NCBI GenBank assembly: GCA_945860685.1
Contig: CAMASJ010000004.1
Span: 1-41,961, forward strand
DNA length: 41,961 nt
Direction: 5' to 3'
Origin: Akkermansia muciniphila
GTDB taxonomy: Bacteria > Verrucomicrobiota > Verrucomicrobiia > Limisphaerales > UBA9464
Part shown: piece after piece, positions 15,720 through 18,309 of the stretch
Numbering within the stretch: the first letter of the stretch is position 1
How the letters are laid out: each line of letters begins with the position of its first letter
Made by a program: the position numbers and the translations under genes
Notes under the pieces: model-generated
Database searches by the model: none
Seen by the model: the letters and a program-made list of their open reading frames with translations, nothing else
Told to the model about the DNA's origin: nothing

Positions 15720-17591
15720 CTACCAGCGCATGTCGGCCACGGTTCTTCCGGCCGGGATGAACGGAAGGACGTGTTCGGTATAGGGGGTGATCACGTCGAG
15801 CACGTAGGCCGTCTCGGAAGCCAGCATCCGTTCGAGGGCGGCGCGCAGGTCCTTGCGGTAGACCACGCGTTCGCAGGAGACGCCGAAGCTGTTGCAGACC
15901 TTCACGTAGTCCGGGTAGATCCCGGAGCGGTTGGCCGGGTTGCCGAGGTAGGTGTGGCCACGGTTGCCGTCATAGAAGTTGTCCTCCCACTGCACCACCA
16001 TGCCGAGGTGCTGGTTGTTCAGGACGATCGCCTTGGCCGCGATCTTCTCGATGTGTGCGGTGGCCAGTTCCTGGATGTTCATCAGGAACGAGCCGTCGCC
16101 GTCGATGTCGATCACCTGCTTGTCCGGGCGGGCCACCTTGGCGCCGAGGGCCGCGGGGAAACCGTAGCCCATCGAGCCCAGTCCGGCGCTGGTCACGAAC
16201 TGCCGGGCGAACTTGTACTTGTACCACTGGCCGGCCCACATCTGGTGCTGACCGACGCCGGTGGTGATGATGGCGTCGCCCTGGGTCAGGCGCCACAGCT
16301 CCTCGATCACCATCTGGGGCAGGATGTATTCCTCCCCGTCCTTATGGAACGGCTTGATGTGGGCCGAGTCGACGATCTGACCTTCCGTGGTGTAGCGGAA
16401 CGGAGCCTTGGCCTTCCACTCCGTGATCTGGTCGTGCCAAGTCGGGAACTTCTTCTTGATCCCGCCGCGCTGGGCGATCAGGGCGTTCAGCCGGGTGAGG
16501 GCGTCCTTCAGGTCGCCATGGATGGCGAGGTTCGCACGCTTGTTCTTGTTGTGCTCCGAGGCGTCGATGTCGATGTGGACGATCGTTGCGCCCTTGGCGA
16601 ATTCCGAGAAGGCGCCCGTGACGCGGTCGTCGAACCGGACACCGAAGGCGAGAAGCAGATCGCAGCCGTCCTTGAGCTTCACCAGCGGTTCGGTGGGGTC
16701 GGTGCGCTTGACGTACTCGCCGTTGACCGCCCAGTTGGCGAAGGCGGCACCGTGCATGCCGAGCCAGCGGAGCGACAACGGATGCTCCTCAGGGAAGCCG
16801 CCGACGCCCATCAGCGTCGTGGTCACCGGGATCTCGCCGGACTCGGCAAAGCGAAGCAGCTCGCCGGAGGCGCCGGCGGTGATGATGCCGCCGCCGCAAT
16901 AGAGCACCGGGCGCTCGGACTTCTCGATCAGGCCGATCACTTCGTTCAAGGCCAGTTCGTCTGCGAACACCTCGTCGGTGTAGCCCCGCAGATTGGCCTT
17001 CACCTCCTCGATCGTCGGCCAGACCGGTCGCGCCTTGAGCTGCTGCACGTTCTTCGGGAAGTCGATCACCACAGGCCCCGGACGTCCGCTCTGGGCGATG
17101 TAGAACGCCTCCTTCACGATCCGGGGGATGTCGTTGATGTCGGTGATCAGGTAGGAGTGCTTCACGATCGGCAGGGTCACACCCACCATGTCGGTCTCCT
17201 GGAAGGCGCCGCGACCGATCATCGCCTGGGGCACCTGTCCGGTGATGGCGACGAGCGGGGTGCTGTCCATGAAGGCATCCGCGATCGCGGTCACCAGGTT
17301 GGTCGCGCCGGGACCGCTGGTGGCCATGCAGACGCCGGCCTTGCCGGTGACGCGGGCGTATCCTTCGGCAGCGAAGCTTCCACCCTGCTCATGACGGGGA
17401 AGGATGGTGCGGATCTTGGACCGGGTCAGCGACTGGTGGATCTCCATGCTCGCTCCGCCCGGGTAGGCGAAAATGACCTCGACGCTTTCACGCTCAAGGG
17501 CTTCGACGAAGATGTCGCGTCCGAACATCAGCGGTCCGATTTCCTTGTTCGGATTCGGGGTGGGGGTGGTCGTCTTGGTGGCCGTGCTCAT
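15720..17591 (-). CDS. ilvB: Acetolactate synthase large (catalytic) subunit
   Basis: [90 protein letters not shown]...[16 protein letters not shown]. Start at MSTATK (17591); the upstream ORF extension runs into the attenuator. Confidence 0.96.
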
Positions 17592-17646
17592 TCTGTGTTG
17601 TCTCCGTGTCTGGCCGGACGTCGTGGATCTCTGTCCTGCTAGGAAC

Positions 17647-17677
17647 AAAAAACCCACGGCCGTCCCCGGCCGTGGGT
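17647..17677 (-). terminator. Attenuator terminator in the ilvB leader
   Basis: Minus-strand 11-bp perfect stem ACCCACGGCCG-GGGA-CGGCCGTGGGT followed by TTTTT, located ~55 nt upstream of the ilvB start. Confidence 0.88.
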
Positions 17678-17693
17678 TCTTGTGAAAGTGTGT

Positions 17694-17765
17694 TCAAGCA
17701 CGACAAGACCCCGCGGCGGCGATGCCGCCTACGACTACGGGGACAAGTACGATTGCCGTGCTCAT
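17694..17765 (-). CDS. Putative ilvB leader peptide (MSTAIVLVPVVVGGIAAAGSCRA)
   Basis: 23 codons: ATG AGC ACG GCA ATC GTA CTT GTC CCC GTA GTC GTA GGC GGC ATC GCC GCC GCG GGG TCT TGT CGT GCT TGA; 5 Val, 2 Ile, 1 Leu; directly upstream of the attenuator terminator and ilvB. Confidence 0.75.
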   Translation of the reverse strand: MSTAIVLVPVVVGGIAAAGSCRA

Positions 17766-17820
17766 TGACGGGAGAAAGGTACCAAGAACAGGCGCGTCCG
17801 GGTCAAGCTCCGGTTGGCCG

Positions 17821-18309
17821 TTAGGTTCGGCTTTCGCCGGATCCGATTCCCGGCGGGCTCCATTGGAATGGACCGGATTCGAACCGGTGTTCCAACCGGG
17901 CCAACACCACGCCCCAGGATCTCCGGAAATATTGGTGCGCCGCATCCCATTCCGGGCCGTCGCCCCAGCCCAGGTGGGTCAGGGTGACACGGGTGGCCAC
18001 CAATCCCAATGCCTGAAACTGGACCACCACCCAGGTCTTCCTCAACCGGACGGTCGGGAACCTCGGCGGCGCGTTCCATTCGAAGGCCAACAGCGTCCCG
18101 GGGACGAAGGTCTGGATCCGGCAACCCTCGCTCCCACGGCTCCCGGCCGGTGCGTCCAGACGGAAATACAACTCGAACTTGCCCCCGGGCCACAGTTCGA
18201 CCAGGGCTTGGGGCGCAAAGAAGGTGGCCAGACCCTCCGAGGTGGTCCAGGCGGACCAGACCGCATCGGCAGGGCCTGGAATCGTGAGAACCAGGCGGAT
18301 GGCTTTCAT
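17821..18309 (-). CDS. SRPBCC / AHSA1-like (START-fold) domain protein
   Basis: MKAIRLVLTIPGPADAVWSAWTTSEGLATFFAPQALVELWPGGKFELYFRLDAPAGSRGSEGCRIQTFVPGTLLAFEWNAP...TRVTLTHLGWGDGPEWDAAHQYFRRSW. Confidence 0.85.
   Translation of the reverse strand: MKAIRLVLTIPGPADAVWSAWTTSEGLATFFAPQALVELWPGGKFELYFRLDAPAGSRGSEGCRIQTFVPGTLLAFEWNAPPRFPTVRLRKTWVVVQFQALGLVATRVTLTHLGWGDGPEWDAAHQYFRRSWGVVLARLEHRFESGPFQWSPPGIGSGESRT

Follow-up and report, generated by a model that had tools for sequence, protein, structure and literature searches.

Anatomy of the region before ilvB

The window, meaning the whole 41,961-nt stretch of DNA analysed here, carries on its minus strand an ilvB gene preceded by a short Val-rich ORF, a set of competing RNA pairings and an intrinsic terminator. 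An earlier note, made from the letters alone, had proposed that these parts form a branched-chain amino-acid attenuator. The features are listed in order of transcription, with what each assignment rests on.

17801..17806, minus strand: -35-like box TTGACC of the putative leader promoter, from the sequence; 135/139 distinct relatives have a TTGAC 34-43 nt upstream of the leader start, against an expected 1.4
17783-17778, minus strand: alternative -10 box GGTACC, with a 17-nt spacer
17776..17781, minus strand: -10-like box TACCTT, with a 19-nt spacer, from the sequence and from relatives, where TANNNT is most frequent 12-16 nt upstream of the leader start
17694..17765, minus strand: leader peptide ORF, MSTAIVLVPVVVGGIAAAGSCRA plus stop, from the sequence; a Val-rich ORF is kept at the equivalent place in the order
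17724..17742, minus strand: region 1, CCCCG (17742-17738) and GGCGGC (17729-17724), which pairs with region 2; from the sequence and the minimum-energy fold
17703..17717, minus strand: region 2, GCCGCGGGGUCUUGU, common to hairpin 1:2 and antiterminator 2:3; from pair counts (58 sequences), an arm-swap test and masked folding
17669..17683, minus strand: region 3, ACAAGAACCCACGGC, common to antiterminator 2:3 and terminator 3:4; from pair counts and masked folding
17647..17677, minus strand: intrinsic terminator 3:4, ACCCACGGCCG-GGGA-CGGCCGUGGGU plus six U; from the sequence and pairing among relatives
15720..17591, minus strand: ilvB, the gene under the proposed control, encoding the biosynthetic acetolactate synthase large subunit (TIGR00118, 665 bits against a cut-off of 538)

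The 23-codon ORF is present as first described: it runs from ATG (17765-17763) to TGA (17696-17694) on the minus strand and encodes five Val (GTA GTC GTA GTC GTA, in order), two Ile and one Leu. The 83-aa ORF of which it forms the tail (17694..17945) is merely a mechanical reading frame. Hairpin 1:2 was correctly placed, with CCCCG paired to CGGGG (17713-17709) and GGCGGC to GCCGCC (17720-17715), and so was the 11-bp terminator, whose arms are ACCCACGGCCG (17677-17667) and CGGCCGTGGGT (17662-17652) with a run of six T at 17652-17647. The 2:3 helix needed extending: its GGG/CCC and GCCG/CGGC segments stand, but it had been drawn too short, as UCUUGU (17708-17703) also pairs with ACAAGA (17683-17678); the full antiterminator is GCCG.GGG.UCUUGU with ACAAGA.CCC.CGGC. 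No ilvN adjoins ilvB in the window, again as noted; the small subunit gene is unlinked, on another contig (C121), so that its absence here does not mean a missing subunit.

One way to read such a hairpin is as the terminator of the gene upstream, or as a constitutive insulator, with the ORF incidental. As an intrinsic terminator the hairpin is indeed strong, and upstream of it a reading frame on the same strand ends at 17821; however, in 135/139 relatives the promoter box intervenes between the upstream gene and the leader, the hairpin is conserved together with the Val-rich ORF and with a region 2 that complements the terminator arm, and leuA has a Leu-coded equivalent (below). We regard this reading as very improbable. 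Transcription of ilvB from a start between terminator and gene, which the earlier note held would count against attenuation, finds no promoter-like site there, in a weak scan that missed the leader promoter too; the latter omission is attributable to the spacer of 19. A generic terminator scan reported no terminator, probably because extra A-U and G-U pairs absorb the T-run.

At ordinary sigma-70 spacing, the promoter boxes place the predicted transcript start no more than a few nt from the leader ATG. Shine-Dalgarno-like motifs precede the leader in 3/139 cases; such motifs are also rare before ilvB (11/135), and the missing motif therefore proves nothing alone, the inference of leaderless initiation resting on promoter spacing. 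The mRNA from which the leader is translated is thus probably leaderless or nearly so. The choice of leader start slightly favours starts with TTGAC upstream, although few leaders had alternatives.

Competing structures and the coding signal

The 131-nt leader region folds at z = -6.7. A terminator stands between leader and ilvB, as attenuation demands, and 98.6% of its cells are paired across 58 sequences. The antiterminator, which uses the terminator 5' arm and so excludes it, shows eight pairs changed on both sides, with 28 such cells against 14.3 in shuffles (58 sequences; relatedness uncorrected). Examples of compensation are CUUGU/ACAAG, CCUGU/ACAGG (L191) and GUUGCG/CGCAAC (L027). Pairing of the antiterminator arms is better within a locus than after an exchange of arms between loci (Wilcoxon p = 6e-8, relatedness uncorrected). 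The comparison that the earlier note proposed speaks for both helices, with near-universal pairing in the terminator and compensatory change in the antiterminator. The MAFFT alignment is poor over the 5' half of the leaders.

Folding with a masked ribosome gives the two states that a ribosome-controlled switch would need. When the mask covers Val codons, region 3 pairs with upstream sequence (0.71 on average, 0.80 at the best codon); when it covers the stop codon, region 3 is free (0.04), and the contrast holds in 137/137 leaders. Folding with no ribosome differs among leaders. Many leaders of relatives would form the antiterminator (mean 0.61), the 1:2 hairpin not being dominant there; in the window's own leader the minimum-energy fold is predicted to contain the 1:2 hairpin, and the antiterminator would not form (0.16 for L002, a near-identical relative). 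In this leader the finished terminator has the greater thermodynamic stability of the two; therefore, the model requires kinetic folding, and it assumes a particular order of folding as transcription proceeds, just as the classical model does.

A CCRGCC motif lies at 17617..17612 on the minus strand, complementary to GGCYGG in the terminator 5' arm and loop. The motif is present in 73/133 relatives, for the most part 20-28 nt upstream of the ilvB start; shuffles give about 8.

The ORF itself carries a clear signal. Across 138 distinct leaders, Val makes up 25.3% of residues in the coding frame, compared with 8.0% and 2.1% in the remaining two. GTA encodes 42% of the Val residues in the leaders but 1.3% of those in ilvB of the related loci, and none of the 46 Val codons of ilvB in the window's own genome is GTA. 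The number of Val codons is 3-9 in almost every leader, with 10 and 11 in two; the low count in some close relatives, only 3 in L007, L009, L010 and L013, tells against the model. The distance from stop codon to terminator core is mostly 17-20 nt. Constraint on the peptide is mild (pN/pS 0.62), which fits expectation if chiefly the control codons matter.

A second perspective supposes that the ORF encodes a small peptide with a function, or that the terminated leader RNA acts in trans as an sRNA. Terminated leaders could be abundant, and a C-terminal AxGxCR is conserved; that conservation, however, overlaps antiterminator bases (CUUGUCG), the remaining peptide drifts, and the element lies directly before ilvB, with a single full copy in its own genome. 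The chance of this is slighter still than that of an insulator, and no greater chance attaches to a third supposition, that a metabolite-binding riboswitch or a T-box controls the terminator. The leader is structured, with alternative hairpins, and ppGpp riboswitches serve other ilvB genes (PMC10272879). Against this, Rfam scans gave no family above its gathering cut-off, here or in relatives (the best, His_leader, scored 21.3 bits against 49), conservation tracks codons and amino-acid identity, Val for ilvB and Leu for leuA, and a T-box would need a longer leader.

Distribution and the leuA counterpart

Relatives of the ilvB locus were drawn from named genomes and from the family and order of the window. 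Within Limisphaerales, nearly every genome with DNA upstream of ilvB has leader and terminator before the gene, in fixed order and spacing: a Val-rich short ORF, then a terminator of the CCCACGGC..GCCGTGGGTTTTTT type, then ilvB. The conservation of a short ORF with Val/Leu/Ile runs, which the earlier note had proposed to seek in relatives, thus extends across the order. Dozens of families and about 140 distinct ilvB leaders were covered, with one clear loss and one weak form; both fell among 60 further order members, the loss in a complete genome (L245, G110), the weak form, low in Val and with an imperfect terminator, in L239 (G112). A detector for a terminator plus a short ORF rich in branched-chain amino acids found nothing in 305 dinucleotide shuffles of order members, nor in 400 shuffles of other members of the phylum.

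A covariance model of the ilvB leader picked up a single full copy in the window's own genome; in one order member it gave a second match, located before leuA. A Leu-rich leader of the same layout as that of ilvB occurs in 23/30 leuA loci of the order, several others being incomplete; these leaders are 29% Leu, with a consensus resembling MNxNLNLRLLLNALLL..AAVGF. In the window's own genome, leuA (contig C74, L365) follows a GTG-started leader, MTVFGNLRLPSALRLRGAADGRC, and then a terminator. GTG starts prevail among the leuA leaders of L369-L398, for example MNRNLNLRLLLNSLLCGVAVGF, with terminator CCCCACTGCC..GGCGGTGGGG. No terminator was seen in the region before ilvC. The control amino acid thus matches the gene, Val in the leader of ilvB and Leu in that of leuA; the preferred codon goes with the gene as well, which strongly supports tRNA sensing. 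Judged from the letters, then, both genes appear to have the short leader ORF coding for the pathway amino acid that attenuation calls for.

Among the first class and phylum members checked from outside the order, the closest ilvB copy has no such leader. The idea that the attenuator is absent beyond the order was nevertheless withdrawn, as other ilvB copies and other lineages carry leaders of their own. Equivalents unrelated in sequence precede other ilvB copies, in L288/L293 (MKLTLVVLLVKVVVVVVTSNEFARA), L278 (MLNVIRLVVVNVVVVVTNVVSAR) and L298-L301. At these loci, from other orders of the class, ilvB is of a second type (for L288 the best NCBIfam match is PRK08155) and has a Val-rich leader and a terminator of its own. 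Attenuators before ilvB also occur elsewhere in the phylum, in about a dozen genomes of other families. Val/Ile/Leu-rich leaders with terminators were seen there before ilvB at L323, L335, L342, L344, L345, L353, L354, L356, L357, L360, L361, L302 and L304; their sequences are mutually dissimilar. At L364 (G331), tandem leader ORFs, MNTVFNNIISVIIIAAVVIIGCGAAGCCC and MNTTLFNNNPNFVPALPVSGSVVVSIAAVIIIAIVISVIIIITPPGAA, precede ilvB, with a terminator-like hairpin after each; the arrangement is possibly a double attenuator. Some records titled Acidobacteria (L063) or Akkermansia muciniphila (L005, L010, L038, L040 and L062) contain the order's ilvB and leader; these titles are therefore probably wrong.

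Proposed mechanism and relation to known systems

We are confident, from the sequence comparisons above, that the element is a ribosome-mediated transcription attenuator that would make ilvB respond to charged tRNA-Val. Its transcription start, translation, ribosome stalling, read-through and response to starvation are inferred as follows. RNA polymerase would start from the TTGACC promoter, very near the leader ATG; with ample Val-tRNA, the ribosome would reach the stop codon and cover region 2, leaving region 3 free to form the 3:4 terminator, and transcription would stop before ilvB; with Val-tRNA short, the ribosome would stall on the Val run and cover region 1; region 2 would then capture region 3 before polymerase has made region 4, and polymerase would read through into ilvB. 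Perhaps the tRNA for the rare GTA codon is the main one sensed. The classical logic that the earlier note assigned to the locus gains support from the conserved ORF, terminator pairing, compensatory changes in the antiterminator and leader promoter box.

In the enterobacterial ivbL-ilvB and ilvL-ilvG systems, a leader peptide coded with Val, Leu and Ile, mutually exclusive hairpins and a terminator precede an acetolactate synthase gene. The element described here is alike in its branched-chain-coded leader, exclusive hairpins and terminator adjoining such a gene; it differs in belonging to another phylum, in its unlinked ilvN, in lacking a Shine-Dalgarno motif and in the probable leaderless start of its leader.

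Actinobacterial leaders offer a second comparison: Streptomyces IlvL and LeuL, C. glutamicum ilvBNC and the Corynebacterium ilvB-II motif (PMC8079986, PMC11857589, PMC10272879). They share a short branched-chain-coded leader, a terminator with antiterminator, and separate leaders for ilvB and leuA. Leaderless leader transcripts are reported for Streptomyces (PMC8079986), and promoter spacing predicts the like for the present leaders. The present leaders have a much longer Val run (mostly 4-8 Val), their region sequences are unrelated in the parts compared, and ilvB stands alone, in contrast to the ilvBNC operon of C. glutamicum. For the ilvB-OMG and Leptospira ilvB motifs, which precede ilvB in other bacteria, uORF attenuation has been reported as probable (PMC10272879); the peptides there are Thr-rich as well, whereas Thr is 3.1% of the present leaders, a distinction of composition.

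The suggestion that this is attenuation beyond the Proteobacteria holds in that it is seen, at the level of sequence, in Verrucomicrobiota, but is not novel as such: attenuation is known in Actinobacteria, Firmicutes and others (PMC2965389, PMC8079986, PMC10272879). Naville and Gautheret in 2010 remarked that leader peptides beyond Proteobacteria and Actinobacteria were almost unknown at the time (PMC2965389); by 2023, Narunsky et al. made the case for widespread uORF attenuation of ilvB (PMC10272879). No description of leader-peptide attenuation for Verrucomicrobiota was found in the open-access literature searched.

Taken jointly, the observations incline us, with rather less assurance than for the ilvB element itself, toward a wider picture: a pair of attenuators throughout Limisphaerales, Val-coded at ilvB and Leu-coded at leuA, both leaderless or nearly so; GTA would gauge one Val-tRNA isoacceptor, and other lineages of Verrucomicrobiota would have evolved or kept versions of their own, in at least one case two in tandem. 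The attenuator predicts how branched-chain amino-acid synthesis is controlled in a common but little-studied order, and would extend leader-peptide attenuation of the classical kind to Verrucomicrobiota. About 140 natural variants of one attenuator, together with a Leu-coded twin, permit a direct test of codon rarity and leaderless initiation as setters of attenuator sensitivity. They also constitute a family of small genes overlooked by ordinary annotation.
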